From the NCBI GenBank assembly GCA_000017645.1, contig CP000781.1, positions 186,001-250,000 of the forward strand: a stretch of 64,000 nucleotides of DNA. Direction: 5' to 3'. Below the pieces are notes generated by a model. The model worked only from the letters and a program-made list of their open reading frames with translations. It ran no database searches and was not told the DNA's origin. A program made the translations under genes and the position numbers. Of this stretch, positions 33,614 to 55,823 are shown piece after piece; the stretch's first letter is position 1, and every line of letters begins with the position of its first letter. This DNA is from Xanthobacter autotrophicus Py2. GTDB lineage: Bacteria > Pseudomonadota > Alphaproteobacteria > Rhizobiales > Xanthobacteraceae.

Positions 33614-33707
33614 GTCTCCCTCAAGGCATTGAAATTTCAATTTAATGCGCAAGATCAAGAGTTTGTCTGGTCGATTGCTACACTCGTCTGCTACGCAAGG
33701 CGGCGAA

Positions 33708-36997: not shown

Positions 36998-38008
36998 ATG
37001 GGCGATGTATCAGATAGTTATGGGCAAGTTAACGCGACCTTGCCCGTGGTTCCTAGGGATGTTTTACGTCGGTTTCATGTGGACGAGCCTAGCGACACAC
37101 GATTTGCATGCTGCGCGCGCTTGCTCCAGTCGACTTGGCGTGAAATGTGCGGAATGAAGCCGGGGCTGCATCGATCCCGGAGCGGCAGTCAGCGTGTTCT
37201 TGGAAGTCGTCTCAGCGAAGTGGATGCCAAGCAGGGCCGTAATTTCCTGACCCCTGACATCGCCCGGCTGGCGCGCCGTGCCGTAGCCTATCGAGAATAC
37301 GGCGCCCTCATCGATGAGCAGCGCCTGTGGGAGAATCTCCTGTCGAGCCAGCCGCTCACCTTCAACCTGTTCGCACTGTGCCAGGTGGATGAGGAACGCC
37401 GCCATCGCCTCTTCGAGCGCCTCTTCCCCGGCTTCTTCGGGGAGGTGGAGAAGCTGGCCTTCGAGCACTCGCCGGGGCGTGGTGACACGCGCTATCTCGG
37501 TGACTACACCGCCTTCGACCTCTTCGTGAGCGGTACCGGCCCGGACGGTCGGCCCGCCTTCATCGCCATCGAGGTCAAGTATTCCGAGGATATGCGACAG
37601 CCGGGACGGAGCGGGTCTGCCCGGTATCGGGAACTCACCCGTGCCTGCGCCCTTCATCTCGATCCTGATGCGCCGAGCCTTTTGACCGGTCACCTCGCCC
37701 AGCTCACCGCCGAGCATCTTCTGGCCGCTCTGATCCGGGAGCAGTGGGGGCAGGGTGCCCATGGCCTGTTCGTCACGATCGCACCTGCCGCCAACCGGGA
37801 AGCTTGGTATGCCGTGGAACTTTACCGCTCCATGCTCGACCGTCGGCCTGACGGGGTATCCTTCATGGCGATTGCCCTGGAGGATGTGATCGCGGCCGTT
37901 AGCGAAGCGGGTGACCCCGACCTCTCCGCGCGCCTGCATACGCGGTACACGGACTTCTCGCCGGTTCATCGTCTCATCGACGACTGGCAGCCCTTCACCG
38001 AGGACTGA
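36998..38008 (+). CDS. putative PD-(D/E)XK restriction endonuclease-like protein (PGN_0703-like)
   Basis: A 336-residue protein whose centre looks like a PD-(D/E)XK nuclease: D174 in TAFDLFVSG and E192-x-K194 in FIAIEVKYSED, with a conserved Glu-containing helix upstream (GFFGEVEKLAFEH). This pattern resembles the PGN_0703 family annotated as putative restriction endonucleases. No methyltransferase is adjacent. The N-terminal 55 residues are Cys/Arg-rich and weak, so the true start may be downstream of ATG 36998. Confidence 0.6.
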   Translation: MGDVSDSYGQVNATLPVVPRDVLRRFHVDEPSDTRFACCARLLQSTWREMCGMKPGLHRSRSGSQRVLGSRLSEVDAKQGRNFLTPDIARLARRAVAYREYGALIDEQRLWENLLSSQPLTFNLFALCQVDEERRHRLFERLFPGFFGEVEKLAFEHSPGRGDTRYLGDYTAFDLFVSGTGPDGRPAFIAIEVKYSEDMRQPGRSGSARYRELTRACALHLDPDAPSLLTGHLAQLTAEHLLAALIREQWGQGAHGLFVTIAPAANREAWYAVELYRSMLDRRPDGVSFMAIALEDVIAAVSEAGDPDLSARLHTRYTDFSPVHRLIDDWQPFTED

Positions 38009-39783: not shown

Positions 39784-39847
39784 TGACGTTGCCCCTCCTG
39801 GCTAATCCAGCTTGAAGTTCGTTCTGGCCCCATGAGAGGACCAGAAC

Positions 39848-40114
39848 ATGAGGCGCAGCCGCTTCACCGAGGAGCAGATCATCGGGATCCTGAAGGAGCA
39901 CGAGGCCGGGGAGCCGGTCTCGGACCTGTGTCGGAAGCACGGGGTCAGCGACGCCAGCATCTACAAGTGGAAGGCCCGTTTCGGCGGGATGGACATATCG
40001 GAGGCCAAGCGGCTGCGGGCGCTCGAGGACGAGAACGCCAAGCTGAAGCGCATGCTCGCCGACGCCATGCTGGACAACGTCGCGCTGAAGGATCTCCTGG
40101 GAAAGAAGTGGTGA
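39848..40114 (+). CDS. IS3-family transposase OrfA
   Basis: An 88-residue helix-turn-helix protein ([39 protein letters not shown]) with a C-terminal leucine zipper ([20 protein letters not shown]). It binds IS ends and regulates transposition. The heptamer GGGAAAG at 40099-40105, in frame just before its stop, allows -1 frameshifting into orfB to give the OrfAB transposase. Confidence 0.93.
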
Positions 40115-41037
40115 CGCCCGCTGCCGAGCGCAGAGCTGTCGCCCATCTCGTGGAGCATCACGGGATGAGCGAACGGCGGGCGTGTAAAGCCACCGGCTTC
40201 TGCCGCATGACCATGAGATACAGAGCCACGCGCGGGAATGACGCCTCGCTGCGTGAGCGCATGAAGGCCATCGCCCAGGAGCGACGGCGGTTTGGCTACC
40301 GCCGTCTCCACGTCCTGCTCAGGCGGGAGGGCTTCCGGGTCAACCACAAGCGGCTGTTCCGGCTCTACCGTGAGGAACGGCTGATGGTCCGCCGGCGAGG
40401 CGGTCGCAAGCGGGCGATCGGGACACGGGCGCCGATGATGATCCCGATGGGACCGAACGAGCGCTGGTCACTCGACTTCGTCGCCGACCAGATGACCGAT
40501 GGCCGCCGCTTCCGGATGCTGGCCATCGTGGACGACTGCACCCGCGAGTGCCTGGCGCTGGTGGCGGACACCTCGCTGTCCGGGGTCAGGGTCGCTCGCG
40601 AACTCGACAGGCTTCTGGCAGAGCGCGGCCGGCCCAAGATGATCGTCAGCGACAATGGCAGCGAGTTCACCTCCAATGCCATTCTGGCCTGGACCGACGC
40701 GGCCCGGGTCGAGTGGCACTACACCGCGCCCGGCAAGCCGATGCAGAATGGCTTCATCGAGAGCTTCAACGGCCGCCTTCGGGACGAGCTGTTGAACGAG
40801 ACGCTGTTCTCCAGCCTGTCCCAGGCCAGGGCCGCCCTCGCCCGATGGCAGGTCGATTACAACACCGACCGACCGCACTCGAAGCTCGAATGGCAGACGC
40901 CAAGCGCCTTCGCCTCAACGTTCCACCCGCGGCGGGATCAGACGCTCCACAACATGAGCGGCTCCGCGTCTGCCCCCGCCGCCCCGCACACCCGAAAGGG
41001 CAAATCCAACCGCCAGAACGAACTCAAAGCTGGATAG
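40111..41037 (+). CDS. IS3-family transposase OrfB (DDE catalytic domain)
   Basis: A 308-residue DDE transposase domain. It has an N-terminal HTH_21-like region ([16 protein letters not shown]), then the rve integrase core with catalytic Asp in WSLDFVAD, Asp in [11 protein letters not shown] and Glu in [14 protein letters not shown]. All three acidic residues are present, so the element may be active. Independent initiation could occur at GTG 40111; the active form is expected to be the OrfAB frameshift product. Confidence 0.92.
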
Positions 41038-41125: not shown

Positions 41126-42715
41126 TTGCCTCCGGACCTTACAATCACAGGTAATATTTCAGCATGGTGCGACATGACGAAGACCGGAAGGCGCCATTGG
41201 CTTTGGGTGGCGTTCGGCATAGAGGCAACCCTACTCTACGGGTGCCTTGTTCATAGCGCTGAACTCGGAGCCGTGATTCCCGACAACGAGAAGAGGAAGA
41301 CCGCGCGTTTCGACGGGACGGACGTCGAGATAATTCAAGCCCTCCTAGACAGCGAAGAGGCCCAGCAGATTGGGGATGCGGTTCGTACGCAGTCGACCTT
41401 GGATCTTTCACGGCAGGGCGGTCCGCGCATCGCGTTGGGCGGTTCCCGTCACAGGCTCGCCGACGGGTTTGGACGCCGTTCCCGTCCGATGGAAACCTAT
41501 GTCGGGACAGATCACCCTCCGCTCTCGGACCATGGATGGACTCAGGCGTTAAACTTCCTCAAGGAGATGATCGGTCTCGATTTTCGCCGGCTTCCCGATC
41601 GTCTCGGTGCTTTCGACATCTACGATGTGCCCGAGGCCGATGGTGGAGATCCGCCCATCGATTTCAGCGTGGAACGGGACCGCTCTACGGAAACGCTAAC
41701 CTACCCGGAACAGTTCGTCCTCCGCGCAACCCGAAAGGCCGACGACGATTACGCTGTCCATCTAGAGCTCGAACTCGGGCAGGAGCCTGTCTTTTCCAAA
41801 CTGATCACCATGCACCCTAGCGCAATGGTGCAGGTGGAGGCGGTTCCGTTCGATCACTACAGAATGTCCGTCTTTAACCGGTCGGGCATGCTAGTCCAGT
41901 TTGAGGAGCATTCGCTCCTGCTCCACATCAATCTCAACATCTCAGCAATGGGGCCAACGCTCGCGATCAATGACACACTTGCCCGCTCGGCTCAGGGGCT
42001 CGGACCGGAACTTCGAAATAGCGCATCGAAGGTTCGCACTCGATCCACGAGCCGATCGAAGATTACGGCTGAAAACGATGCCGCCTTCGAGGCGCACCGG
42101 ACAAAGATGCGGGCGCTTGCGCATCGGCTGGTGCCTCCGTCAGGCAGCGACCGCTGGTTTCATCGAGGTATCGCAGACGAGGTCGGCGTCATCGCTCACT
42201 TCAACGTTCTGCTGGACGGCGCGCGTGTCAGCGCCGGCACGATCGTCGATCCGTATTTCGGGATCGACACCCTGAAGCGGGTCATCTCCCGGCTCGAAAG
42301 CCTGGATGTCGATCTGACGGTCGTCACCAGTCTGATAGAGACCGACCCGGAAACGAATGATCCAAATGCAAGCCTGCTCGACGAACTGGAAACGGTCCTG
42401 CGCGACTTGCGGGGCAACGGCATCCCAAACGCCGCCCGCAAACTGAGGGTTCGCAATCTCGTCGATGGCCCGCGGCAGGCATTCCATGACCGTTATCTCC
42501 TGCTCACGCCTCATGAAGGCGAACGCGAGGTCTATCTTCTTTCCAACAGCTTGAACCGCATGGCGGGAAAATGGCCGTTCTGCATGTCGAAGCTGGAGGG
42601 GGGCGCGGCGCGTGACGCCGCGCTTTACATTGACGGGCTTGCCAATGGGCGGGACATCTCCGGATCGACGCAACCGACGACAAACTTCCAATGGCCTTAC
42701 GATGACGCGCGATAG
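41126..42715 (+). CDS. VPA1262-like protein, putative defence component
   Basis: About 529 residues. Family assignment is tentative: HWLWVAFGIEATLLYG near the N-terminus and FHDRYLLLTPHEG...YLLSNSLNRMAGKWPFCMS near the C-terminus recall VPA1262-family proteins found in defence islands. The HDRY box and the preceding VIAHFNVLLDGARVSAGTIVDPYFG suggest a phospholipase-D-like fold, but this is not certain. The start is unclear (TTG 41126 or ATG 41174), and the frame is open back into the adjacent IS, so the N-terminus may have been cut by the insertion. Its stop overlaps the next gene by 14 bp. Confidence 0.5.
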   Translation: MPPDLTITGNISAWCDMTKTGRRHWLWVAFGIEATLLYGCLVHSAELGAVIPDNEKRKTARFDGTDVEIIQALLDSEEAQQIGDAVRTQSTLDLSRQGGPRIALGGSRHRLADGFGRRSRPMETYVGTDHPPLSDHGWTQALNFLKEMIGLDFRRLPDRLGAFDIYDVPEADGGDPPIDFSVERDRSTETLTYPEQFVLRATRKADDDYAVHLELELGQEPVFSKLITMHPSAMVQVEAVPFDHYRMSVFNRSGMLVQFEEHSLLLHINLNISAMGPTLAINDTLARSAQGLGPELRNSASKVRTRSTSRSKITAENDAAFEAHRTKMRALAHRLVPPSGSDRWFHRGIADEVGVIAHFNVLLDGARVSAGTIVDPYFGIDTLKRVISRLESLDVDLTVVTSLIETDPETNDPNASLLDELETVLRDLRGNGIPNAARKLRVRNLVDGPRQAFHDRYLLLTPHEGEREVYLLSNSLNRMAGKWPFCMSKLEGGAARDAALYIDGLANGRDISGSTQPTTNFQWPYDDAR

Positions 42716-44738
42716 GGCTGATCCAAGGCTTACGCCGGGCGTGCTTGCTGCCGCAGTCTGGTTGATGAACGACGAGCGCGAAAGCGAAGCCAGTCTGTTC
42801 AAGAGAGCTTATTTTACGGGGTTGCTTCGCAAAGGACGCACCGGCGGCCCTTGGCACTGCAACGGGCCGCTTCTGGCGCGTCTGCTCAGACGCCGCGTAC
42901 TTTCCGGCGAGCTGCCTTGTCACGGCGCCGTCCTCGTCGGCATCGGCGAGATGATCGCGCACGGCCACGCGCCGGAGGATGAGATTGAGAGCAGTCTGGG
43001 CCGGCTGTTGCGCGGCGCCTATCCAGAAGCGGCCCGACAGCGATTATTCCGGCAGGCGCTTGATCTCGTCAGGTCCAAAACATCTGCAACGCAATCCTCG
43101 CCTTCGCCCGTCTACCAGAGCGAACATCTCTCGGTCATGGATTGGACGCGGATCAACTTCGCGGATCGATGGATGCAGCATCCTGTACCGCTTGGTTCTT
43201 TCTTCGGCTACGGATTGAGTTTCATCGCCCGTATCCTCCTGCGCAATGCTCCCGCGCGCTTGCGGTGGTTCGCGAACGAAGCGAGCAAACGAAGCCTTCT
43301 GCCTGCGGTTGTCGGAAGTGTCGGAGAAGCCTGCTTCTGGAACGATAAGGCCCCGCAACAAGCCTTGCGAAGCGGCGTGCCGCTCTTCGTAAGTTTCGGG
43401 GTGGCTAGGCTTCGAAACGGCGGAGAGGACGGCGAAGGCTGGAAGGCGTCAGCCATAGACGCCGCTCTTATCGACAATAAGGTGGCGATCGAAGGACGGA
43501 TACACGTCAGCGCCTTCATGCTGAAGGAAGCCGTTCATGCTTGGCATCGTCAGAAAAATCGCCCTGCCGAAAACCGCCGCCGGCGTGCCCTGCTCGAGAT
43601 CGACCCTTCCCAAGCGGTAGGCGGCGAACGTCACGCCATTTTCCAAATCGAGCGTCTGAAGGAAGAAGAGCCTGACTTGGAGCGAAGGCGGTCTGCGGTC
43701 ATGCTGGCGCTTGACGACGCTTTGCAAACTGCCGCGCAGCAAGACATCGATCCAGGCAAACTCTGGAGCGTCTTCGAGCCATCGCTGGTCGATACCCCGG
43801 AGATAAGGCATCGCTTCGCGATGGCACATGCCGACGGGGTCCTGCGGCGTGCGGCATTAGAAGCGGCTTTGGCAACCTTCGATAAGTTCGCGGCCGTCCG
43901 GCACCCGGAAACGATCAGCGGTCAGGGATTTGAATCGTTCCGCGCCGAGCGGGAGTTTGCCTTTTGGGCCGCGAGGTCTCAGGTCGAACTATCAAAGGCT
44001 AATGGACGCGATCCAGGCCATGACGCCGCGCGCAGGATCGGAAAGGCCGAAGCCGCGCTGCGTGCCTTCGCGTTGCAGCCATTCGCGGCCACACGTTTCA
44101 ATGAGCGCTTCCAAAACAGCCTTGGCCGCTGGTCCCTTATACTCCAATTCGCGTTCCTAGTCGCTCTTTCGGATCCAAGAGCTCCGTTTGTCATCTTACG
44201 CGACGCGGCGCTGAAATCGGCGGCATCATTCTTGCCGGTCGCTAATCGCTCCGGGTACGACCACCGATGGGCAGACGCCGTCGCCGGCTTGGTTGTTGAC
44301 GCGGTTTCGACGACGCAAGACAATACAGCTCGTGACTGGATCAACGACGAGCGTCAGCCTGCACTGCTTCGCACGCAACTCGTCTGGGCCTGTCCAGCTA
44401 TTCTCGAAACAGACCTTCAACTTGCAACATCGCTTGTCGATGAGATCGCCGCTCGAAAGACATTCCGCTCAGACGCCGGACGGAATGCGTCAGACCTGCT
44501 CAACATAGTCGACCGGGCAGCTGCCGCGATGAAGCGGGAAGATCGGCCGGACCTTTATGACCAGCTGGCAATCCCCTACTCAAAAGCGGTGGCGCAAACC
44601 GATGCTCCGCTCGCCAGAAGCGTCTCTCTGCAAACACTCCTTGCCGCTCTGAACGCTCATCCCGATGCGCGTACGATTTTGCTCAAGGATCCGGTGTGGG
44701 GGCACAGCCGTGTTAGTGAGACGCTTCGCAAAGATTGA
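42702..44738 (+). CDS. large uncharacterised protein coupled to the VPA1262-like gene
   Basis: A 678-residue soluble protein I do not recognise. ATG 42702 gives a 14-bp overlap with the upstream gene, implying translational coupling and a shared task. The sequence is largely alpha-helical and Ala/Arg/Leu-rich, with no membrane helix, Walker motif or obvious nuclease motif. Segments such as PWHCNGPLLARLLRRRVLSG and WNDKAPQQALRSGVPLFVSFG may be useful search probes. It probably forms a two-gene system with the VPA1262-like protein. Confidence 0.6.
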   Translation: MTRDRADPRLTPGVLAAAVWLMNDERESEASLFKRAYFTGLLRKGRTGGPWHCNGPLLARLLRRRVLSGELPCHGAVLVGIGEMIAHGHAPEDEIESSLGRLLRGAYPEAARQRLFRQALDLVRSKTSATQSSPSPVYQSEHLSVMDWTRINFADRWMQHPVPLGSFFGYGLSFIARILLRNAPARLRWFANEASKRSLLPAVVGSVGEACFWNDKAPQQALRSGVPLFVSFGVARLRNGGEDGEGWKASAIDAALIDNKVAIEGRIHVSAFMLKEAVHAWHRQKNRPAENRRRRALLEIDPSQAVGGERHAIFQIERLKEEEPDLERRRSAVMLALDDALQTAAQQDIDPGKLWSVFEPSLVDTPEIRHRFAMAHADGVLRRAALEAALATFDKFAAVRHPETISGQGFESFRAEREFAFWAARSQVELSKANGRDPGHDAARRIGKAEAALRAFALQPFAATRFNERFQNSLGRWSLILQFAFLVALSDPRAPFVILRDAALKSAASFLPVANRSGYDHRWADAVAGLVVDAVSTTQDNTARDWINDERQPALLRTQLVWACPAILETDLQLATSLVDEIAARKTFRSDAGRNASDLLNIVDRAAAAMKREDRPDLYDQLAIPYSKAVAQTDAPLARSVSLQTLLAALNAHPDARTILLKDPVWGHSRVSETLRKD

Positions 44739-44870: not shown

Positions 44871-45266
44871 GGCGGCTGTGGGATACAGGCGCGGAACCTT
44901 GCCGATGGTCTCCACGATCAACATCCCGGCTGGCTCCCGCTCTCGACTGGACGGGAAGATGGAAGAGAGACCGGGGTGGGCCCCGTTGGGGTGCCGATCA
45001 GGCCCTTGGAGAGAACCGGCCTGCGCCGATCCTGCAAAGCGAGGACGATGCGACCAGCCGGTTGCTGCTGGACGACGATGGGAAGAAAGCGATCTGCCGA
45101 ACAATGTCGGCTTTTGGGATCGCCGATAAGACAGGCTAACGTCCGAGATGGGGCGCTTTGCTGACAGACGGCTCCGGGGGCCGCTTGCGGCTTGTCAGGT
45201 TCTAGGCGCGCTGCTGTGCAAAGCGGACATCCGATCAAGATACACCCCGTCGATATCGAACGATGC
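44871..45266. other. spacer between island modules
   Basis: About 400 bp with no supported gene. It contains dispersed repeat copy B (45142-45230) directly before the 3' end of the HEPN gene, so it marks a junction between the VPA1262 module and the CHAT/GIY-YIG/HEPN module. Confidence 0.4.
45142..45230. repeat. dispersed island repeat, copy B
   Basis: CCGAGATGGGGCGCTTTGC, then GACGGCTCCGGGGGCCG and, about 40 bp on, GCAAAGCGGACAT. Copy C (51073-51160) has the same two-part layout with about 90% identity over the first 40 bp. Confidence 0.6.
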
Positions 45267-46217
45267 TCAGGCTCGGCGTTTCAGTTCGGCAAAGCGAGCG
45301 CTGCATTTCTTTGTCAGATCGAGCCCGCGCAGGATGCGGAGTCCCTCGCGAAAATCGTAATCTCGCACGCGATAACGGGTCGCCATCGCGTTGTTGAACG
45401 CCTTCACCATCGAGGTCATCTCGAGGGTGTCAGACAACGGAGGATCGTCGAAAAACGCCCGCCGAGCCGCCAGATAAACGAACCCGCGCTCGCCGAGTTG
45501 CTCGATGACGAGCCGCCCCAGATCGATCGCGATCAACCGCAGCGTCGACGACGCCGCGATGCCCTGGCGGTGGCTGAACGCTATTTGTCCGCCTTCTTGG
45601 ACCGCGACCAGCGCGGGCGCCGTCATTTCACCGGTTCGCGCGATCCATCGGTCGAGCGTCGGCGCCAGCTCGGGCGCGGCATAGGCCTCGACCAGGCTGC
45701 GCGACGCGACGCCCTCGCGATGCGCGATGCAGTTCCGCGCGCGCCGGAAATAGACGTACACCGCCCAAACGTCCGAAATCCGCGCGCGCTCGGCGCCGAG
45801 CCTTGTATAGATTCGTTCGACCCGATCGGTGTCGCCGGGCTCGTCATCGTTCGATGGCGTGTCGGCGGCGTCGAGCGGCGTCTCGCCCGAAAAGTCCCGC
45901 CAGCTGGTCAACTCTGCCATCACTTCGTCGAGAAACAGATCGAACGCCGAAAAGGCGCGCACTACGCCGGCTTGTCCGATGTCGCGGAGCGCGCCATCGA
46001 TCTCGATGCGTGGGTTGGTCCAGTCTGGCATGCCGCCCCACAGCCAGTCGGGGCGCGCGTAGAGGCGATCCCTGATCGTCTCGGCTGGCGTCCCCGCATC
46101 AACTTCGTCGGTGAGCAGCCCGAGGCCTATCGCCTGCACCTTGATCGAGCGGTTGAACCGCTCGTGAAAGCGTTGAAACCGCAAGGTCGCTTCGGTGTTC
46201 GCGCCCGACAGATCCAT
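45267..46217 (-). CDS. HEPN-like domain protein
   Basis: A 316-residue helical protein. RNCIAH (R161-H166) in YFRRARNCIAHREGV fits the Rx4H motif of HEPN ribonucleases or nucleotidyltransferase-associated proteins; AFSAFDLFLDEVMAEL forms a preceding core helix. If active, it would cut RNA as a toxin or defence effector. A purine-rich AAAGG precedes ATG 46217. It lies 75 bp downstream of the GIY-YIG gene on the same strand and is probably the third gene of that operon. Its specific family is not recognised. Confidence 0.6.
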   Translation of the reverse strand: MDLSGANTEATLRFQRFHERFNRSIKVQAIGLGLLTDEVDAGTPAETIRDRLYARPDWLWGGMPDWTNPRIEIDGALRDIGQAGVVRAFSAFDLFLDEVMAELTSWRDFSGETPLDAADTPSNDDEPGDTDRVERIYTRLGAERARISDVWAVYVYFRRARNCIAHREGVASRSLVEAYAAPELAPTLDRWIARTGEMTAPALVAVQEGGQIAFSHRQGIAASSTLRLIAIDLGRLVIEQLGERGFVYLAARRAFFDDPPLSDTLEMTSMVKAFNNAMATRYRVRDYDFREGLRILRGLDLTKKCSARFAELKRRA

Positions 46218-46292
46218 GCCGCCAACCTTTCCTTTTTCCTACCGGCTCGATCCACACCGGCCGGGTCTCACCGAAACTGGATCTCCGTAAGC

Positions 46293-46874
46293 TCAGGTTA
46301 CGAACCGGCGGCGTGGCGGTGGAGGCGGCAATCGCGCCTTGCGTGCCACTTCCTGCGCTTTCCAGGCGAGATAGTCTTCCTCGGTGTCAAAATCAGGCGA
46401 GAGCTCGCTGAAGTCGGTCAGCGCGTCGCAGCTCAGGCAATGATACATCTGCGAGGCGTCCTGGAACGCCATGCCGCACAGGCACCCGCAAAACGGACAG
46501 CATTCGTCGATCTCAAGATCGGCCCAGACCCAAACCCCGAGATATTCGGGCACGGCATCGCTGTCGCGCCCGGTGATCTCGAACGCATCGGCGTTCTTCG
46601 CGACGAACCCCTCGATCCCTGCGGCCTGCAAGTCGCCGAGAATGTCGGCGGGCTGAAGCGCGAACCACTCGCCGCCGACGTTCGCGCCCGCATATTTGCG
46701 GTGAAGCGCCTTTTCCGTCCGAGTATCGTCCGCCGCTTCGATCCAGCCCACCAGCGCAAGCTGCTTTGGGTTGCCGGTCTGGAGCTGACCGAGCCGTCGC
46801 CTGATGTCGGTCGCACGACCGACCTTCATCAGCCACTGACCGCGCTCTTCCTGGTGGATGAAATAGACCGCCAT
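46293..46874 (-). CDS. GIY-YIG nuclease-like protein with C-terminal zinc finger
   Basis: A 193-residue protein. The N-terminal part (about 1-70) matches the MUG113/T5orf172 type of GIY-YIG domain: VYFI for GIY, MKVGRATDIRRRL for YIG plus the catalytic Arg, a Glu in TRTEKALH, and GEWF. The C-terminal half has CPFCGCLCG and HCLSC Cys pairs, likely a zinc-binding module. Its ATG overlaps the stop of the CHAT-like gene by 1 nt, so the two are translationally coupled. A DNA-cutting effector is the natural inference. Confidence 0.72.
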   Translation of the reverse strand: MAVYFIHQEERGQWLMKVGRATDIRRRLGQLQTGNPKQLALVGWIEAADDTRTEKALHRKYAGANVGGEWFALQPADILGDLQAAGIEGFVAKNADAFEITGRDSDAVPEYLGVWVWADLEIDECCPFCGCLCGMAFQDASQMYHCLSCDALTDFSELSPDFDTEEDYLAWKAQEVARKARLPPPPPRRRFVT

Positions 46875-47470
46875 CAGCCTTTCAAGATGTCTGTGGAGAA
46901 GCCGGACTTCCGGCTTGCCGACCGTGCGTAATAACCGATCTCGACGTCGAAGAGCATCGCGACTTTCTTCAGGTTCGTGGCAAGCGTCGCGCGCGACATC
47001 GCGCGGGCATCGCGCTCGAACATCAGATGATAGAGCGCCGGCCAGAACACCGCAGCTTCGGCGAAACCGATGTCCTGGCGCGGGCCGACCACCGAATAAC
47101 AGCCGGTGGCGGGGATGATGTCGGCCGCCATTTGCTCGTGCACGATGCTGCACGCCGACAGGAAAAGCCGCCGGTCGGCGAAGCGCTTGCCGAGCATCTC
47201 GGCAAGCTCACGGTTGCTGACCTCGTCCTGATTGGTGGTCGCGATACCCTCGCGATCGGCGTGCGCCGAAATGTGCAGATAGCGGAAGTCCGAGCGCAGG
47301 AACGCCTTGATCGCTTTCTCGAACGCGTCGCGGGTGCGCACGTAACGGTACGCCGGCTGTTTGCCGTGCAGCCGCGCGACATGGCTGATCACCTGCCCCT
47401 CGAACCGCCCGTTGCCCTCGTCGTCCGGCGACAAGGATTCGATGATGAAGATATCCGCTTTCTTCGACAT
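46874..47470 (-). CDS. CHAT/caspase-like peptidase
   Basis: A 198-residue protein with a compact caspase-like core: candidate catalytic His in LHISAHADREG (H70) and Cys in RLFLSACS (C107), the order and spacing typical of CHAT proteases. Strong GGAGGAG upstream supports ATG 47470. No recruiting domain is attached, so it may be a free protease controlled by or acting on its partners. First gene of a CHAT/GIY-YIG/HEPN operon. The assignment comes from motifs and should be tested by profile search. Confidence 0.62.
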   Translation of the reverse strand: MSKKADIFIIESLSPDDEGNGRFEGQVISHVARLHGKQPAYRYVRTRDAFEKAIKAFLRSDFRYLHISAHADREGIATTNQDEVSNRELAEMLGKRFADRRLFLSACSIVHEQMAADIIPATGCYSVVGPRQDIGFAEAAVFWPALYHLMFERDARAMSRATLATNLKKVAMLFDVEIGYYARSASRKSGFSTDILKG

Positions 47471-47676
47471 CGTTTCTCCTCCGCAAAGCTGCCGCTGGGA
47501 AATAGCGAGCTGTTGAGCAGCCTACGACCGACGCACGCCCCTCACTGGGTTACCCTTGAACGGGGCGCCCACCGCAAGATGCCGAACGTACAAACCAGAG
47601 ACGCGCCCCTCTGAACAGAGCTGGCAACGGCGTTCTTTCGTCAATCGGCGCTGCCGTTCACCGCGAAGCTGCGGAG

Positions 47677-49788
47677 CTACACTGGTGCTGAAGCGACGTC
47701 GTCGGGCGTGATGCCGTGGAAGAAAAACCGAAGGATGTAGCGATCAAACGCCGTCAAGCTTTCGACCCTGAGAGCGGCCTCGAGCCCGTTGCGGCGGAAA
47801 ATATTCAACGCGCTTCTGAGGTCGAGTTCCGTTTGCGAAAAGTCTATATAGCGCGCTTGGTGCAACTTACGCGAGATCATTCGCGGAAGCCCATATTCTT
47901 CCAAACTATGCACTGCTGGTGGCAAAAATGCGTGGCTGATCTTTCCAATAAAACCGCCGATATCAACGGATGAATTTACGATCATTCTATGAAGCTCATT
48001 AATATCGCTTAGGAGAGCTGATAGCTTGAACGTAATCGTTCGCTCAAGTTGGAAAAAGCCCTCAACATCGATTCCATTGCCAGAGAGCTTCCACAGCATA
48101 GTCGGCATGTTGGTTGTCCAGTTTTCCGCGAGAGCCTTAACCACCGCGACGACACGCCCATGAGGGGCATCCCATCCCGAAGGTTTAAGGGCGATTACCT
48201 TATAAAGCATCCGATCCCAGTCAGAAGGCTTGCTCGAGTTAAGATAGCCAAAGCCCTTCCAGTCATCTGGATTGTCTTTCATATCACTGGCAACCTGGAG
48301 CAGAAAATCGGCATCACTATCCTGCAGTAGGTTATCTCTCTGGATCCGCGCGAAATTGTCGGCACCGACGATATCGGACATCTGGCGCTTATACTCGATA
48401 ATCCTTTCGATCTGCCGCTCAGTTAGACTTTCACGATCCTGGGTCTCGTCCAAGCCGCCGAGAACTTTGTCGGGAAACTCGATCTGAAGCTGCGTATCTT
48501 CGTCCTTCGGCGGCGAATCCAAAAGGTAGATGTGCCCAACAAAATGTTTGAACATGCGGCCACCCCGGCCGATAATGTTTTTATATGTAAAATCTTTGAG
48601 ATTGTTTTGACCCAGCTTACTCTTCCATATTATTACATTTTGTGCGGATGTATTCACACCTTCGATAATCGAAGAAGTTGACACGATGCTGTCGAAACCC
48701 TTTTCATGCTCGAAAAGTAGAACCTGAAGCTGACTGAGGCATCTGTGCATCCGGCCATTGTGCACACCCACACCGCGCTCCACGAGGTCAGCTAAAACCC
48801 AATTCTGCTGGTAGTTTTCTCTAAGCCAGCGGGCAAAATGGTTTGTATGCGCCCGGTCTACCTTGTTCATTCGACCTACAACGAGATCGGTAATTTTTTT
48901 AATCTCCGTGTAAGTTCCGGCGTAAACAAGGGATTTCTGGCTTCTTGGCGCGATAATTGACAGAAGCGCTTCAGACTTCCTTTGCGCATCTCCACCAATA
49001 TCCTTGTAAATTTCATGCTTTTCAAGGAAGACTGTATTGAAATCGAGGAGCTCAAGAAACTCCATGTCCCTCGTGAACACATTATCTTCTAGTTTTTTGA
49101 TGTTCGGAGCTAAGTAGTAACGCTGCTCAGCAAGGCGAGATAATAGAACAATTGCCTTAATCAGTGACGGTGCCCGCTCCTTGTCGTGAACAATGCTTGC
49201 CTTGTAGAATTCATCGATGACTAAAAGATCGATCTTTTTGAGTTTATTGATGTAACCGAAGGCTCGTTCCTGCGGAAAAATCAGAATATTTCGCGCCTCG
49301 AGCGGCGCGTCAGGCGCAGTGATAATGCCGTAATCGCGGGCGAACTTCTTGTACAGGCGACGGCGAGTTTCATCCATCAACGCAATCGTCGGCACGATGA
49401 TCACCACAGTGTCGGGTCGCTTGGCCGCGATAAACGCGTCGATTATGAAGCTCTTTCCGAAGCTTGTCGGCGCACTCACGGCAATGCTTTTGCCGCCGAG
49501 AAGTTTTGAAAGAACCGTGGCCTGCTCCCGGTGCAATGTGGCGGTTCTGTTGCCTACATCGACTGCGAACGCCTCATGGACGAATTTCTGGTCCCATGAC
49601 GCATTCTCGAGCTGCAGATAGGGAAAAAGCCCCGCCGATCTAACCAGCTGGTTCAAGACCTGGGGATATGGCGTTTTGCTACGATCCAGGTCGTCCAAAA
49701 GTTTTATCAGCATATTGCGCGCAGCTAGGTCATTACCGCCTTCAATTAGATCATTGACCTCCGAACATGCAGCAAACAGCTCCATCAT
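47677..49788 (-). CDS. hamB: Hachiman defence helicase HamB
   Basis: A 703-residue superfamily 2 helicase. Walker A APTSFGKS (106-113), DExx box DEFY (192-195) and motif VI GRGGR (407-411) are visible; the C-terminal part is helicase-accessory and family-specific. The start overlaps the hamA stop (ATGA at 49785-49788). In Hachiman, HamB senses or processes invading DNA and unleashes HamA. Base composition is notably more AT-rich than the core, consistent with acquisition. Confidence 0.86.
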   Translation of the reverse strand: MMELFAACSEVNDLIEGGNDLAARNMLIKLLDDLDRSKTPYPQVLNQLVRSAGLFPYLQLENASWDQKFVHEAFAVDVGNRTATLHREQATVLSKLLGGKSIAVSAPTSFGKSFIIDAFIAAKRPDTVVIIVPTIALMDETRRRLYKKFARDYGIITAPDAPLEARNILIFPQERAFGYINKLKKIDLLVIDEFYKASIVHDKERAPSLIKAIVLLSRLAEQRYYLAPNIKKLEDNVFTRDMEFLELLDFNTVFLEKHEIYKDIGGDAQRKSEALLSIIAPRSQKSLVYAGTYTEIKKITDLVVGRMNKVDRAHTNHFARWLRENYQQNWVLADLVERGVGVHNGRMHRCLSQLQVLLFEHEKGFDSIVSTSSIIEGVNTSAQNVIIWKSKLGQNNLKDFTYKNIIGRGGRMFKHFVGHIYLLDSPPKDEDTQLQIEFPDKVLGGLDETQDRESLTERQIERIIEYKRQMSDIVGADNFARIQRDNLLQDSDADFLLQVASDMKDNPDDWKGFGYLNSSKPSDWDRMLYKVIALKPSGWDAPHGRVVAVVKALAENWTTNMPTMLWKLSGNGIDVEGFFQLERTITFKLSALLSDINELHRMIVNSSVDIGGFIGKISHAFLPPAVHSLEEYGLPRMISRKLHQARYIDFSQTELDLRSALNIFRRNGLEAALRVESLTAFDRYILRFFFHGITPDDVASAPV

Positions 49789-50888
49789 GCTGCCCCCTTG
49801 TAAAAAGAGACTGCTCCCAAGAAGGTGTCCACAATCGCCTTCTTATCCGGAACCGGAAAAAGGATCAGATGGAATTGGATATTTCCATACTTATGGACCT
49901 TAGACGATCCGGATAGCTGCTTTAAGAAGTAGGCCTCGGCTCTTTCTGTGTGATGGGCGGAGATTGCCTGACGATATTGGTCGGAAAGCTCGGCGCATTT
50001 CGCCGTCTCGGCGCATTGGTGAATTATGAGGATCGGAACATGGATCTTCGGTTTTAAATGATCGATCGAAACCTGGCTGCTCAGTGCTGCCTTGATTTTT
50101 GCTCGGAGCGCCTCCGCCATAACCAGCTGGTCAAGATCGGACACGTTGGTGATGATGGCGTTTTCTTTTTTCAGCTTGCCGGTGTCTAGGCTTGAGTAAA
50201 CCGAATTCACGACCGAGTCCAAACGCGCATCGGCGATTGAATTATAGAATTTCGCTTCGCCAAACCACAGAGTAAAGTCTTCGCCATCATCGCTGACGAC
50301 GATATGGACGCTATCCGCGCCTTTGGCGTTATCCTGTGAATTTTGTTTATAAAATATCTTGGGTACGACGGGTAGCGCCTTATAATGGTTTTTCATAATT
50401 CCGTAGAGAAAAACCTCAGCGATTTCGCTCCCTTGGCCGACCTCGTCTTTGTCCGTGAGCCTGAGATTTCGAGCGGCCGCTACCAACGCCGAATGGCTCT
50501 GATCAGCCAGTGCCAAGCGCTCACGCTCTGAGAGAGCGGTTTGAGCGATGTTGTCCCAAAGATAACTCTGGAAACGACTGCTAAGCCACCTTCCATCTTC
50601 AAAGTCGTTTACAAAGCTCAGGACGCGCTTGTTCAATAGCGCCTTTAACTGGGCGACATTCGTGATCTTAGATAGAGAATCGTCTATCAGCGTTTCGAAG
50701 GCGATATTGATCATTCGGCAGACGGCCTTTGCCGAGACCGAAAGCAGATTACGCATCCTACTCCCAAACGCTCGATCGCCCTTTGCATCGAAAAAGATGC
50801 CCTTTCCTCGCCGCCTCCCAATTGGCTCGCAAGAAAAGAGCAGGGTGTCAAGCAGATCGGGCACTGGGATTTGGCTCGCTTTCGTCAT
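49785..50888 (-). CDS. hamA: Hachiman defence nuclease HamA (DUF1837)
   Basis: A 367-residue DUF1837 protein with a PD-(D/E)XK nuclease core. E155 in GSEIAEVFLYGIMKNHYKAL, D192 in NAKGADSVHIVV and E211-x-K213 in LWFGEAKFYNS give the expected acidic-Lys set. This layout and the overlapping downstream helicase identify the two-gene Hachiman anti-phage system. ATG 50888 lacks a strong ribosome binding site. Kept inactive by HamB, HamA is expected to degrade DNA upon infection. Confidence 0.86.
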   Translation of the reverse strand: MTKASQIPVPDLLDTLLFSCEPIGRRRGKGIFFDAKGDRAFGSRMRNLLSVSAKAVCRMINIAFETLIDDSLSKITNVAQLKALLNKRVLSFVNDFEDGRWLSSRFQSYLWDNIAQTALSERERLALADQSHSALVAAARNLRLTDKDEVGQGSEIAEVFLYGIMKNHYKALPVVPKIFYKQNSQDNAKGADSVHIVVSDDGEDFTLWFGEAKFYNSIADARLDSVVNSVYSSLDTGKLKKENAIITNVSDLDQLVMAEALRAKIKAALSSQVSIDHLKPKIHVPILIIHQCAETAKCAELSDQYRQAISAHHTERAEAYFLKQLSGSSKVHKYGNIQFHLILFPVPDKKAIVDTFLGAVSFYKGAA

Positions 50889-51403: not shown

Positions 51404-52471
51404 TCAGCGCAGCGCCCCGAGCTCGCGGTGGGCGGGGAACTCCTCCAACGCCGCGTCGATCAGGCTCTCGCGAGTGACACTGCCCCCGCCGCCGCCCTGC
51501 GACAGCAAGCGGAGCGCCGAGAACCACTGGGCCCGACCGGTACCGCCGAGCGCGAGGTTGGCCACTTCGCCGCCCGCGCGCAGCCATATCTGCTGGTCTG
51601 TCGGGCCGGCGGGGAACAGGTCAGACATGATCTGCTCAAGCTGGCGCTCCCGGCAGTTCGCTTTGGGCGCAATGGTTTTAGTGCCGCCCAGCACAAGCGC
51701 GACGGGAAAGTTCTCCTCAAGGTTGGAGGCCTTAAATATGGGGTGTTGTCGACCCGGCGCAGCTTGCCTTACCGCCTCGGAAACGTAGTTGAAAAGGTCG
51801 AACACTCGGATCGTCCCGTCGTCCGCCGCCACTGCGGCGCCTTTGAGGCCAGCGAGCAGAGCAGTCGTGAACACGCTGTTGCGCTCGCGTTTCCGTACGA
51901 GAGAAGTCTCGGTCGCGCGAGACGATGCGAACACGACGCGTCCGGTTCCACTCGCCAGCTGCTGCAGCGACTTCTCGTCGAAACCCTCGTCCAGCCCGTC
52001 GTCGTGGTCCCCCTCGAGATCGGACTTGAGCGTGGCGGCGCCGGCTGCATGGCATGCGTCGATGCTGACGACGACGCGGGACGCCTTGATCGCCGATATC
52101 GCGGCCGACAGTTCGACTTCGCCCAGTGAGGTGCCCGCGAGATCACCGCGCTTGCAGTCGTAAGGGACGAGCGCACTCGTCGCAGCCCGGCCCAAGCCGA
52201 CGCGCGTGCCGTGGCCGGAGAAGAATATCGCAACGGTGTCGTCGGCGGTCGCGTCGGCGGCGAGGTCGGCGAGCGCCTTGCGGATGCCCTCGAGCGTCGC
52301 TTGGCCGTCGGTGAGGACGGTCACGTTCGCTTCGGGATAGCCACAGTATGACGACGACCTCAGCGTATCGGCGGTATCGCGCGCGTCGTTGAGGACGGCC
52401 TCGGGTAGGCGCCGGACCTCCTCGTAGTTCGCGATGCCTATTACGAGCGCCCGGCCCTGCTTGAACTGCAT
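51404..52471 (-). CDS. caspase-like peptidase with EAD1 adaptor domain
   Basis: A 355-residue peptidase C14 (caspase/metacaspase) effector. The catalytic dyad is H87 in FFSGHGTRVG and C140 in VVVSIDACHAAG. The C-terminal segment (about 280-350; LFPAGPTDQQIWLRAGGEV) is an effector-associated domain EAD1, a small helical adaptor mediating homotypic recruitment. The same domain ends the upstream GAP1-like protein, 29 bp away in the same operon. It is the likely suicide effector of the GTPase-associated conflict system. Confidence 0.85.
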   Translation of the reverse strand: MQFKQGRALVIGIANYEEVRRLPEAVLNDARDTADTLRSSSYCGYPEANVTVLTDGQATLEGIRKALADLAADATADDTVAIFFSGHGTRVGLGRAATSALVPYDCKRGDLAGTSLGEVELSAAISAIKASRVVVSIDACHAAGAATLKSDLEGDHDDGLDEGFDEKSLQQLASGTGRVVFASSRATETSLVRKRERNSVFTTALLAGLKGAAVAADDGTIRVFDLFNYVSEAVRQAAPGRQHPIFKASNLEENFPVALVLGGTKTIAPKANCRERQLEQIMSDLFPAGPTDQQIWLRAGGEVANLALGGTGRAQWFSALRLLSQGGGGGSVTRESLIDAALEEFPAHRELGALR

Positions 52472-52500
52472 GCTTGTCTCCGTGGTCAGCGCGCGCCGGC

Positions 52501-54975
52501 TCAGCTGCGGAACAGTGCGTCGCCGGCCAGCATTCTAAGGTTGGGGTTCTGGGGGAAGTCGGTTCGCATCTCGCTGATCAGTTTTGATACGTGCGGCGGC
52601 CGCCCGTTCTGGATGTCGCGTAGCGCGGCGTGCCACCGCTCCTTCCCGGTCCCGTGGTGGCGCAGGTCCGACTCGCGTCCGCCGGCGCGCGACCAGAGTG
52701 CGTCCTGGTCGGGCCCTTTCGGGTAGAGGTCGGCGGCGAGCTCGACGAGCGTGTCCCACTTCTCGGCGCTGCTGACGGAGGAGAGGTCGAGGAACATCCT
52801 GTCCCAGAAGCCGATGAGGTCAAGGCAGTGGCGCAGCGCCGGTGCGAGGTCGCTGCGCCCGCCGCGGTAGAGGGTAAGTAGCTCCGCAACGATGTCTCGC
52901 CGCCGCCGCGCTGCGAGCGCGCGCCCGATGAGCTCGGCGTCAACAGCCGGAAGCGGGCGCGTCGACCGGATGGCTGTCAGAACCCACGTGCGGAACCTAT
53001 TGTCAGCAAGGCCGCCCAGGGCGTCGACGATACGGAACCCTTCGGCTATCCCGCGTGCGGAGACGCTGTCGAGGAGCTGGTCGAGCCTCGCGTCGCGCAG
53101 GATGCGGTCGGTCAGCGGGGCCTCGAGCGCGGCCTCCTGCTCGCCGGCGCCGGCCCGCGCGAACCAGGCGTCGGCAGTGGCGGCGAGCAGGCGGTCGCGG
53201 ACGGTGGCGGGTAGCTTCGCCCAGAGTTCGCTCCGGCGCGGAAATGACGTAACATCCGCTAGCGGGGTGGTCGATAGACGCTCGAGGAGTTCGGCCGGCG
53301 GGCTGCCGCCGTCGATCTGCTCGGCGAGGAGGTGGTCGAACGCCTTGCGCGGCTCGGTCGGCCCGTTCCACGCGGCGGGGTCGTCTTTCAGCGCCGCCGC
53401 CCAGATGCGGCGGTTGGGGGTGGTCGATATGTCCCGCCGCGCCAGGAGCTTCGGGTCCCTGGCCACGGCCTCGCCGGCGATCGCCAGCACTCGCTCGTCG
53501 GGGACGTCCGCGAAGGCGTCGAGAATCTCATCCGGCTTCGCGCGGCGCAGCGCCAGCCGCATTGCGGAGGGGTCAGAGCCCCTCTCGGCGGCGCTCTGAG
53601 CCCGCGCCGCGTCCGCGGGCTTCATGCTGCCGCCGGCCGCGACGGCGTGCAACCGGGGCATCCCGGACCGCGCGGCGATCTCGATGATCGGCTTCGCGGT
53701 GGTTGCATCGAGTTCGGGCGGTGCGGCAGCGACGACTGCATCGAGTGCCTTCCGGTCTGCAGCTGCCAGCGCGACGAGCGGCGGCGAAATCCTGGAGGCG
53801 ATTTTGGCCCATCGCCAGAACGCGGCGGCAAACGCCCCGCCGGGCGCCGTCGACGAGCGTTCCAGTCCACGTCTGGCGGCGGCGCGCCACGGCGCGACCG
53901 CCTCGGTGCCGACCAGCGCGTCGGTGACGATTGTCACCGCTTCGGGATCGTGCGGGGCTGGGTGGTCGCTATCGGCCAGCCAGTCCTCGACCCCATCCCA
54001 CAGGACGCCTATGGTCGCGAGGCCGGGGAGCGCGAAGTTACGCAGAGTGAGGATCTCGGACGGGGACGCGTCGGGGAGCGCGCGCGCGAGGCGCCCGACG
54101 ATAGCCTCCTTCTCCGCCCCGCCGCGCGCCGGATTCGGCGACAGCCGATCGACCAGCCTTGCGGCCGCGACTAGCCGCGCGACGGTGTCGGGTTTGGCCG
54201 TCGCCATCGCGTGAGCCTGCTCAAGGAGCTGCAGGTCCTGGAAGCCGTCAAGGTCCGCGCCGATCCGCTCGCCGAACGCACGGAGGTCGTCGCCGTCGGG
54301 CGAGCCGTCGATTATGCCGGCGGCCTTGAGCCCGCCAGCCACATTACGGCAGACGATCCGCTGGTCCTGCCAGCGGCCGATAAGCGAGGCCGGGGTGCAG
54401 ACGATCGTCGGTCCGGGCTTCTCCACGACGTCCTTCGGGCTGAAGCTGAGCCGGAAGTGGAGCTTGCCCCGCAGGGTCGGCCATAGCCGTCCCCACAGCG
54501 CGACGATTAGCTCCTCGAACCCGTCGGATCCGATCCGCACCACCGGGCCGTTACCGCGGGTAACGAGCGCCTGCGCGGCGTCGGCCAGGTCAGACGAGGC
54601 GGGCGGCATGCCCTGGGCCGGCGCGACATCGAGCGGCTCGACCGCGTCGGGCGCGGCGGCGGCCGACGTAATCAGGCGCGCAAGGAGCGGGCGCAGGTCG
54701 TCCACTTCGACGATCTCGGCCAGATCGCAGATGAGGGCGTGGGAGATCACCATGCCCGACCGGTCGACAGTCGGGTCGCTGAACGTCCGGGCGAGGACGT
54801 ATTTGTCGCGCGAGCGGAACCCGGACGTGACGGGCGACCAGTGGGCGCCGAGCGGCTCGGTGTCTGGCAGGTCGAGGCGCTGGGCGAGGTCGGCCGCGAG
54901 CCTGCGGTCGCCGCTCGCGCACCTGAGCCCATGCCCGTTCCTGATGGTGCCGTATATCGCTTGGTCGACGCGCAT
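52501..54975 (-). CDS. GTPase-associated protein 1 (GAP1)-like protein with EAD1 domain
   Basis: An 824-residue multi-domain protein. The N-terminus (DQAIYGTIRNGHGLRCASGD, then FSDPTVDRSGMVISHALI) matches GAP1-N2-type domains; a long helical middle region follows; residues about 740-815 (LYPKGPDQDALWSRAGGRES) form an EAD1 domain like that of the caspase. It is the probable scaffold connecting the GTPase switch to the effector. It begins 17 bp after the GTPase-2 stop. Confidence 0.8.
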   Translation of the reverse strand: MRVDQAIYGTIRNGHGLRCASGDRRLAADLAQRLDLPDTEPLGAHWSPVTSGFRSRDKYVLARTFSDPTVDRSGMVISHALICDLAEIVEVDDLRPLLARLITSAAAAPDAVEPLDVAPAQGMPPASSDLADAAQALVTRGNGPVVRIGSDGFEELIVALWGRLWPTLRGKLHFRLSFSPKDVVEKPGPTIVCTPASLIGRWQDQRIVCRNVAGGLKAAGIIDGSPDGDDLRAFGERIGADLDGFQDLQLLEQAHAMATAKPDTVARLVAAARLVDRLSPNPARGGAEKEAIVGRLARALPDASPSEILTLRNFALPGLATIGVLWDGVEDWLADSDHPAPHDPEAVTIVTDALVGTEAVAPWRAAARRGLERSSTAPGGAFAAAFWRWAKIASRISPPLVALAAADRKALDAVVAAAPPELDATTAKPIIEIAARSGMPRLHAVAAGGSMKPADAARAQSAAERGSDPSAMRLALRRAKPDEILDAFADVPDERVLAIAGEAVARDPKLLARRDISTTPNRRIWAAALKDDPAAWNGPTEPRKAFDHLLAEQIDGGSPPAELLERLSTTPLADVTSFPRRSELWAKLPATVRDRLLAATADAWFARAGAGEQEAALEAPLTDRILRDARLDQLLDSVSARGIAEGFRIVDALGGLADNRFRTWVLTAIRSTRPLPAVDAELIGRALAARRRRDIVAELLTLYRGGRSDLAPALRHCLDLIGFWDRMFLDLSSVSSAEKWDTLVELAADLYPKGPDQDALWSRAGGRESDLRHHGTGKERWHAALRDIQNGRPPHVSKLISEMRTDFPQNPNLRMLAGDALFRS

Positions 54976-54992
54976 CCGCGCTCCCCGTCCCT

Positions 54993-55823
54993 TCAGCCGC
55001 CGGCGCTGAGCAGGTGGTGGATCGGCAGGGTGAGGTCGCTGCTCTTGGTGCCGTCCGCCTCGATGACGTAGCCGAAGTGTTCGGGCCCCTTGCTGGCGTA
55101 GTCCATGTCGCGCGTGGTGGGACTGAGCGGCCGCTCGAGAGCAGAGAGCCCCATGATGAGCGGCTGGCGCCAGTTCGACCGCACGAACGCCGAGACAAGC
55201 GGCAGCCTGGCGGCGAGCGCCGCTGCCGGCGTCTGCGGGGGCGCCGCCTCGTCCCAGCAGGTGAGGAGCACGCCGAACCGCGGGACCCGCTGCGCCTTAG
55301 CGGCCGATCCGTAGGAGAAGATCAGCATCTGCAGCAGTTCCACCAGCCGGGCCTGGTCGGACTGCTGCACCTCTCGGTTCTCGACCGATGCGCCCTTCAG
55401 GTCGGCGAGCGGCTTCGAGAACATGTCGTCGCCGACGATGGCCTGCTGCAGCCGGATGAGGAGCAGCCAAGCATCGGCCCCGACGACGCGCTTCTGCCAC
55501 GCGTCTGGGAGGCGCCGGTTCTCGATCACCGACTTGATCTGCTCGCCGCCGTATTCCGGCCAGACTAGGTCGGCCTGCCGGCCGTCGCCGTCGACCACCG
55601 GCCATACGCTGTCGACGTTGACGGTGCGCGCCGTATGGCCGGCGGCCCGCCCCTCGTCGAGGCTCTCGAGCGCGGTCTCAAAGGCCTCGAGGTTGGTGGC
55701 CGCGCCGTTCATGCGCAGCGCGCCCTTCACCCGCATCAGGCGCCTCAGCAGCTGCGCGCCGTAGTGCGTCTTGCCCACGCCGCTCTCGCCGACGAGGAGG
55801 ATGGAGTTAGACGGTCCGCTCAC
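54993..55823 (-). CDS. TRAFAC-clade GTPase (second GTPase of the GAP1 system)
   Basis: A 276-residue P-loop NTPase. Walker A/G1 is GESGVGKTHYG, directly after the N-terminal SNSILLV strand; the G3-like strand is LVWPEYGGEQIKS and LLTCWDE supplies the G4-like position. The GTG start overlaps the stop of the preceding GTPase by 4 nt (GTGA). An apparent longer frame upstream is antisense-like and rejected. It should form a paired nucleotide switch with GTPase-1. Confidence 0.8.
   Translation of the reverse strand: MSGPSNSILLVGESGVGKTHYGAQLLRRLMRVKGALRMNGAATNLEAFETALESLDEGRAAGHTARTVNVDSVWPVVDGDGRQADLVWPEYGGEQIKSVIENRRLPDAWQKRVVGADAWLLLIRLQQAIVGDDMFSKPLADLKGASVENREVQQSDQARLVELLQMLIFSYGSAAKAQRVPRFGVLLTCWDEAAPPQTPAAALAARLPLVSAFVRSNWRQPLIMGLSALERPLSPTTRDMDYASKGPEHFGYVIEADGTKSSDLTLPIHHLLSAGG

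Follow-up and report, generated by a model that had tools for sequence, protein, structure and literature searches.

Several described defence systems contain single components that resemble those of the locus presented here. The CRISPR-linked SAVED-CHAT and Craspase TPR-CHAT proteases carry a caspase-like CHAT fold with a His-Cys pair, as does the protease of this locus. According to the available part of PMC10952713, a CHAT protease also takes part in defence in Borvo, a GIY-YIG nuclease is used against phages in PD-T4-3 and PD-lambda-1, and a HEPN-motif protein in ApeA, PD-T4-2, PD-T4-5, and PD-T7-3. GIY-YIG (as URI) and HEPN nucleases occur around Dnd genes (PMC10853773, available part). 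In the available sections of two further papers, HEPN was present and GIY or CHAT domains were absent (PMC8195603), and CHAT domain, caspase, and GIY were all absent (PMC12839542). Here, we describe three adjacent genes in a 64,000-nucleotide stretch of the Xanthobacter autotrophicus Py2 genome, the whole of which is referred to as the window (Table 1). With somewhat less than even confidence, we favour the reading that they form a mobile, self-contained anti-phage cassette of a protease, a GIY-YIG nuclease, and a HEPN-type RNase, which is located behind a Hachiman system but is separable from it.

Table 1. Features of the three-gene locus and its upstream neighbours (positions in the window).
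Feature	Position	Strand	Remarks
CHAT-like caspase-fold cysteine protease	46874..47470	(-)	198 aa; H70, C107
GIY-YIG (MUG113/T5orf172) nuclease	46293..46874	(-)	193 aa from ATG; Cys-rich tail
HEPN-motif protein, probable RNase	45267..46217	(-)	316 aa; R161-N162-x3-H166 closing a predicted helix
Ribosome-binding site (AGGAG) of the protease gene	47471..47480	(-)	Start of the block in common with Acetobacter fabarum
Block 89.6% identical to Acetobacter fabarum NZ_WOTG01000003.1 (L002 7991-9515)	45956..47480	(-)	1526 aligned columns
HamB helicase of Hachiman	47677..49788	(-)	Upstream neighbour; judged outside the cassette
HamA (DUF1837) of Hachiman	49785..50888	(-)	Upstream neighbour

As the initial annotation had described, the three genes are located on one strand and the first two overlap by one nucleotide: the order on the minus strand is HamA, HamB, a 206-base gap, protease, nuclease, a 75-base gap, and the HEPN-motif gene, and the protease stop and nuclease start have one base in common (TGATG, 46876 down to 46872). 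A sequence scan revealed neither promoter-like nor terminator-like sites for the minus strand within the 206 bases that separate HamB from the protease gene; for the whole region, the totals of such sites were 6 and 8, near or slightly above the means for shuffled sequence (3.4 and 7.8). In the list of open reading frames, the nuclease begins further upstream, at a GTG (47153, 286 aa); we took the internal ATG as the start because the family alignment begins there. The strand opposite the nuclease and HEPN genes contains a 579-aa open reading frame (45192-46931), which is probably spurious, since most of the substitutions in the reading frame of the nuclease are synonymous.

The assignments of the first two genes, a CHAT-like core with H70 and C107 and a MUG113-type GIY-YIG nuclease with a Cys-rich tail, were both upheld. 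For the protease, structure comparison supported the caspase-like fold, with SAVED-CHAT (8tl0) as the best structural match, and among the relatives listed H70 was kept in 119/120 and C107 in 120/120. The score against the Pfam CHAT family PF12770 was 17.5 bits, below the gathering cut-off of 24; therefore, the protein is referred to as CHAT-like and not as a member of PF12770. No PADLOC match at E 0.1 was obtained for the protease or for two of its relatives. The nuclease scored above the Pfam cut-offs for both MUG113 (45.8 bits, cut-off 22.3, E 9.2e-12) and T5orf172 (43.5 bits, cut-off 20, E 4.9e-11), and its residues 1-79 also matched phage families of unknown function in PHROG. The residues that we take to be the Tyr, Gly, Arg, and Glu of the GIY-YIG catalytic core were conserved among the 120 relatives listed of the 270 found (Y4, 119/120; G19, 120/120; R27, 120/120; E69, 119/120), and in the same set C126, C146, and C149 of the tail were each kept in 120/120. 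The tail may form a zinc ribbon, for which the Pfam matches were sub-threshold.

HEPN domains are described in the available part of PMC3710099 as carrying an Rx4-6H motif with a polar residue after the Arg at the end of helix 3, which a variable insert separates from helix 2; helix 2 itself bears an acidic residue, typically as Ex3[KR]. The predicted model of the third protein was almost wholly helical and confident (pLDDT 91.7), with R161, N162, and H166 closing the helix 144-166 and low-confidence residues 111-130 separating it from the long helix 69-110, within which D93 (46/47 relatives) is located, not in the Ex3[KR] form. R161 and H166 were each kept in 45/47 relatives, and residue 162 was N in 24, D in 21, R in 1, and H in 1; the two exceptions, P0149 and P0166, have a sequence at the motif unlike that of the rest of the family. 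The earlier assignment of an Rx4H HEPN motif was therefore borne out in part: the motif, the polar residue, the helix position, and the insert fit the description, but no Pfam HEPN match was found for the protein and 25 relatives at E 1, the gene had no Pfam, NCBIfam, or PHROG family match, and fold comparison gave no significant match. From the motif and the predicted model we regard the third protein as HEPN-like with moderate confidence, and it is probably an RNase. The missing family and fold matches would also be expected if the protein were RNA-binding, or an inactive helical mimic of HEPN by motif, and the functional unit were the CHAT-GIY pair, which Acetobacter fabarum has kept intact as its third gene decays. 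We consider this improbable, given that nearly all of the 47 relatives keep R161, H166, and the polar residue after R at the helix end, and that residues 82-169 had a weak PADLOC match to RT-associated HEPN (E 0.03).

The objection that homologues of the three genes might never stand together in other genomes is answered only narrowly, by a single named case. In Acetobacter fabarum (locus L002), a 90% identical DNA block begins at the ribosome-binding site of the protease gene and ends inside the third gene, where the HEPN match covers residues 1-86 with one stop and lacks the motif. Thus, the set itself was found again, but its third gene is truncated there and can be lost, and the more distant protease and HEPN relatives stand apart. 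For the window against Acetobacter fabarum, dN/dS was 0.056/0.348 (~0.16) in the protease and 0.037/0.395 (~0.09) in the nuclease; the comparison covers these two genes, the third being truncated in Acetobacter. The protease and nuclease are genuine genes under purifying selection. At L002 (16.6 kb), tblastn found neither HamA nor HamB, a search that also misses the distant HamB of locus L016, and PADLOC detected no HamA or HamB model among 7 neighbouring proteins, with no open segment longer than 347 aa. Since no Hachiman was found at this locus, the block seems to have spread without it. The exact trio is known from this one recently spread block only. When 11 kb of the window was searched against plasmids, no match was obtained. 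Equal-sized contigs had hinted at further pairing of trio members (protease P0003 and HEPN P0122, 12,214; HEPN P0123 and nuclease P0176, 2,279; protease P0114 and nuclease P0281, 9,867); these pairs were given no weight because equal sizes, 1,171 and 1,072, were also seen for protease-nuclease pairs too long to fit, which shows that chance coincidences arise.

Relatives of the third gene were located at four loci, namely the window, L002 (truncated), L017 of Rhizobium beringeri, and L018 of Cupriavidus basilensis. At the latter two, both plasmids, no CHAT or nuclease gene was present within about 6 kb of the HEPN relative; they are the two that were read of four plasmid records with a HEPN match, H5 and H7 (identical in identity and span) being left out. 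The HEPN profile matched 1/385 genomes of the class, the window's own, and no match in viral contigs was confirmed. For the protease, nine loci with a profile-confirmed CHAT relative were read: the window, L002, the Paracoccus versutus plasmid pBEN (L003), a Vibrio ponticus plasmid (L004), a 4 kb Salmonella plasmid (L005), the genomes G528 (L030) and G431 (L031), and two viral contigs that read as prophage (L010 and L011). The nuclease or the window HEPN family was found in the window and L002 only and was missing from the other 7/9 loci, with flanks of unequal extent (467 bases on one side in L010, 4 kb in total in L005). The CHAT search gave 2/289 genomes of the class, one of them weak, and 3/397 of the order, and found none in phages. 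The weak match, at L006 (E 8.8e-4, 81 residues), was dropped, as the family profile did not confirm it at 1e-4. In G528, a pAgo gene (class I by PADLOC) is convergent with the lone CHAT relative (L030 4749-6206); in L010, a 35 kb viral contig, the lone CHAT relative (468-1070) adjoins apparent phage structural genes and is 467 bases away from the contig end.

Such a distribution would be expected of three separate accessory defence genes that stand in tandem and were moved together once, with the CHAT protein as a stand-alone effector. The lone CHAT genes in the L010 and L011 prophage-like contigs, on pBEN, beside pAgo in G528, and in G431 speak for this explanation, as do the HEPN relatives without the other two genes on the Rhizobium and Cupriavidus plasmids and the loss of HEPN in Acetobacter fabarum. 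The one-base overlap of protease and nuclease argues against it, and so does the extent of the common block, which begins at the protease ribosome-binding site and, up to the point where it ends, takes in all three genes. A further point against it comes from the nuclease loci, where the nuclease is next to an Rx4H HEPN-like gene, belonging to any of three families, in 8/10 cases; the exceptions are L041, which has no gene of the three families, and L002, which was not counted because its remnant lacks the motif. On balance, we hold separate genes to be a serious alternative, only slightly less likely than the cassette.

The ten nuclease loci read have 60-100% identity to the nuclease of the window (L002, 92%; L042, 66%; L013, L014, L020, and L015, 64-65%; L029, 61%; L041, 61%; L016, 60%). 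The gene upstream of the nuclease encodes a CHAT protease in two loci (the window and L002), a HEPN-motif protein of the P0290 family in five, and a Lit-type protease in three (L016, L029, and L041), with the Lit gene and the nuclease each split in L016. The five P0290 loci (L013, L014, L015, L020, and L042) have a TrlF-type ATPase, a TauD-type gene, P0290, and the nuclease, as established by annotation for four and, for L042, by PADLOC and 54-80% identity to L013. By family, the HEPN-like genes are A2 in the window, the short downstream family A4 (164-172 aa) in L013, L014, L016, L020, L029, and L042, and P0290 in the five TrlF loci; in L042, A4 is frameshifted and P0290 is intact. In L016 and L029 the HEPN-like gene is located downstream of the nuclease. 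Between L029 and L041, the Lit gene, a PD-T7-1-like gene, and one further gene are 81-88% identical. Because the five TrlF loci are alike, L029 and L041 are alike, and L016 is a second Lit arrangement, the ten loci amount to about four architectures, two of which have Lit in common and also, though not throughout, the short HEPN family. The recurring unit is the nuclease with some HEPN-like gene, and the upstream gene is interchangeable. A broader reading would make the trio one member of a three-part defence family, composed of a MUG113 GIY-YIG nuclease with a Cys-rich tail, a HEPN-type RNase drawn from several lineages, and a protease that can be exchanged, CHAT in one branch and Lit in another; the protease slot would then be a plug-in switch, by analogy with caspase-triggered immunity. 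We consider such a family unlikely.

The three HEPN-like families were absent alongside five nucleases of 34-52% identity (L019, L027, L028, L032, and L043). In L028, an annotated Swt1-family HEPN protein is encoded three genes downstream of the nuclease. A common origin of the HEPN-like families is not supported, as hhalign gave a probability of 0.1% each for A2 (window) against A4 and A2 against A5 (TrlF-linked). P0290 had a weak PADLOC match to DUF3644 (E 0.0036), which is named among the HEPN families in the available part of PMC3710099. The short family A4 had no Pfam, NCBIfam, or PADLOC match and matched two PHROGs of unknown function; it is called HEPN-like here purely for its Rx4H motif. 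It was also observed without the nuclease at about 5000-5500 in L023, L024, and L025, near plasmid P-loop ATPase genes. On rhizobial and Paracoccus plasmids and in one further genome, the TrlF-type ATPase, TauD-type, P0290, GIY-YIG, and short HEPN-like genes are arranged in series (L013 1363-7043; also L014, L020, and L042, and L015 without the last gene), and this row looks like a separate defence set. In L029 (5280-9828) and L041 (2511-6401), the series is a PD-T7-1-like gene, a related second gene, a Lit-type gene, and GIY-YIG, with the short HEPN-like gene in L029 alone. The nuclease search matched 2/385 and 4/397 genomes, and further searches (1/7, 1/8, and 1/30) matched only the genome searched around. 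Phages gave 3 partial matches and viral contigs 6, one of which (L032, the one read; L033-L037 were left out) reached the tail. The nuclease matched 12 plasmid records, of which eight were read, H11, H16, H18, and H19 being left out.

The surroundings of the trio agree with the defence-island setting claimed for it, as Hachiman, which the initial annotation had left unmentioned, and other defence genes were identified around it with Pfam, PADLOC, and NCBIfam. PADLOC detected HamA (E 3.2e-139; also found by Pfam) and HamB (E 2.5e-222), so that Hachiman is made up by the neighbours and not by the trio. The window also contains an integrase, a PD-(D/E)XK nuclease, a VPA1262-family gene, and a caspase-EAD1 / GAP1-N1 / double-GTPase set. 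The block is probably defensive. The phage-type integrase with DUF6538 and the PDDEXK_13 nuclease (33645-35297 and 36998-38008) are perhaps the left part of the island. The gene for the VPA1262-family N-terminal protein (41126-42715) adjoins an integrase-core transposase gene (39832-41037) and overlaps, on the plus strand, a 708-aa open reading frame (42612-44738) for which no family match was found. On the other side of Hachiman, caspase with EAD1 (51404-52471), GAP1-N1 with EAD1 (52501-54975), and double-GTPase 1 (54993-56282) follow one another on the same strand and form a second caspase-based conflict set (51404-56282).

The proximity of Hachiman raises the possibility that HamA-HamB-CHAT-GIY-HEPN is a single operon in which the trio backs up HamAB. 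All five genes are on one strand, and no promoter- or terminator-like site was reported in the 206-base gap on that strand. A second Hachiman is present in Agrobacterium HAMBI 105 (L016; HamB model PDLC00174, 1829.5 bits), where it is followed on one strand, at intervals of 3 to 75 bases, by DUF4238, Lit-type, nuclease, and HEPN-like genes. Against this stand the Acetobacter fabarum block, next to which no Hachiman was found and which speaks against an obligate linkage of the trio to HamAB, and the low frequency of the association, since Hachiman adjoins just 2/10 nuclease loci (the window and L016 by PADLOC, the others judged by annotation or reading of open reading frames). In addition, the HamB proteins of the window and L016 have different best models and were not linked by tblastn at 1e-3. 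We regard a Hachiman accessory arm as highly improbable. At the Lit loci L029 and L041, PD-T7-1-like genes precede the Lit gene, and L029 also adjoins what appear to be type I restriction-modification genes.

The preferred reading, a mobile cassette of protease, nuclease, and HEPN-type RNase, is supported by the intact genes, the one-base overlap, the purifying selection on the first two genes, the transfer as a block, and the defence surroundings, and also by the way in which the nuclease turns up again next to HEPN-like genes while the protease upstream of it varies. That the three genes act as one machine is less certain than the defensive role of the block. In such a machine, the nuclease, with its conserved Cys-rich tail, would recognise and nick (mark or cut) incoming DNA, and the CHAT protease would be an infection-triggered switch that cleaves either a cellular protein or a partner, in the simplest case one of the other two trio proteins. 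The released HEPN protein would then cut cellular RNA, growth would halt, and phage spread would be blocked. We infer this mechanism, in which the protease would gate the nuclease and the RNase, from knowledge of the families, including the precedents of Craspase and CalpL.

The initial annotation had put the locus forward as the strongest candidate for an undescribed defence or abortive-infection module. A protease, a GIY-YIG nuclease, and a HEPN protein joined in one unit were not found described in the available text of the open-licence literature, which is weak evidence in favour of this claim. Each part of the trio resembles a known kind of defence effector. SAVED-CHAT and TPR-CHAT differ from the protease of the window, which is a caspase core alone, without a SAVED or TPR sensor, and no CRISPR proteins were found among 20 window proteins scanned against Pfam. 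PD-T4-3 and PD-lambda-1 are listed under PF01541 in the available part of PMC10952713, and the trio nuclease, with its matches to MUG113/T5orf172, is set apart from them by description; the PADLOC candidate PDC-S57 matches it weakly (E 0.0012). Gene 3 is distinguished from the HEPN-motif proteins of ApeA, PD-T4-2, PD-T4-5, and PD-T7-3 by the missing Pfam HEPN match. Hachiman is the immediate upstream neighbour of the cassette on the same strand, but the cassette is also present where no Hachiman was found. Lit (Peptidase_U49), which fills the slot upstream of the nuclease in three loci, is by family a metalloprotease and not a CHAT protease, and none was seen in the window. If the protease does trigger the nuclease and the RNase, the trio, at 2.2 kb, would be a compact model of immunity gated by a protease, built of proteins without an evident CRISPR or cyclic-nucleotide sensor, and the exchange of CHAT for Lit at one position would suggest that one and the same switch can be operated by proteases unrelated to each other.
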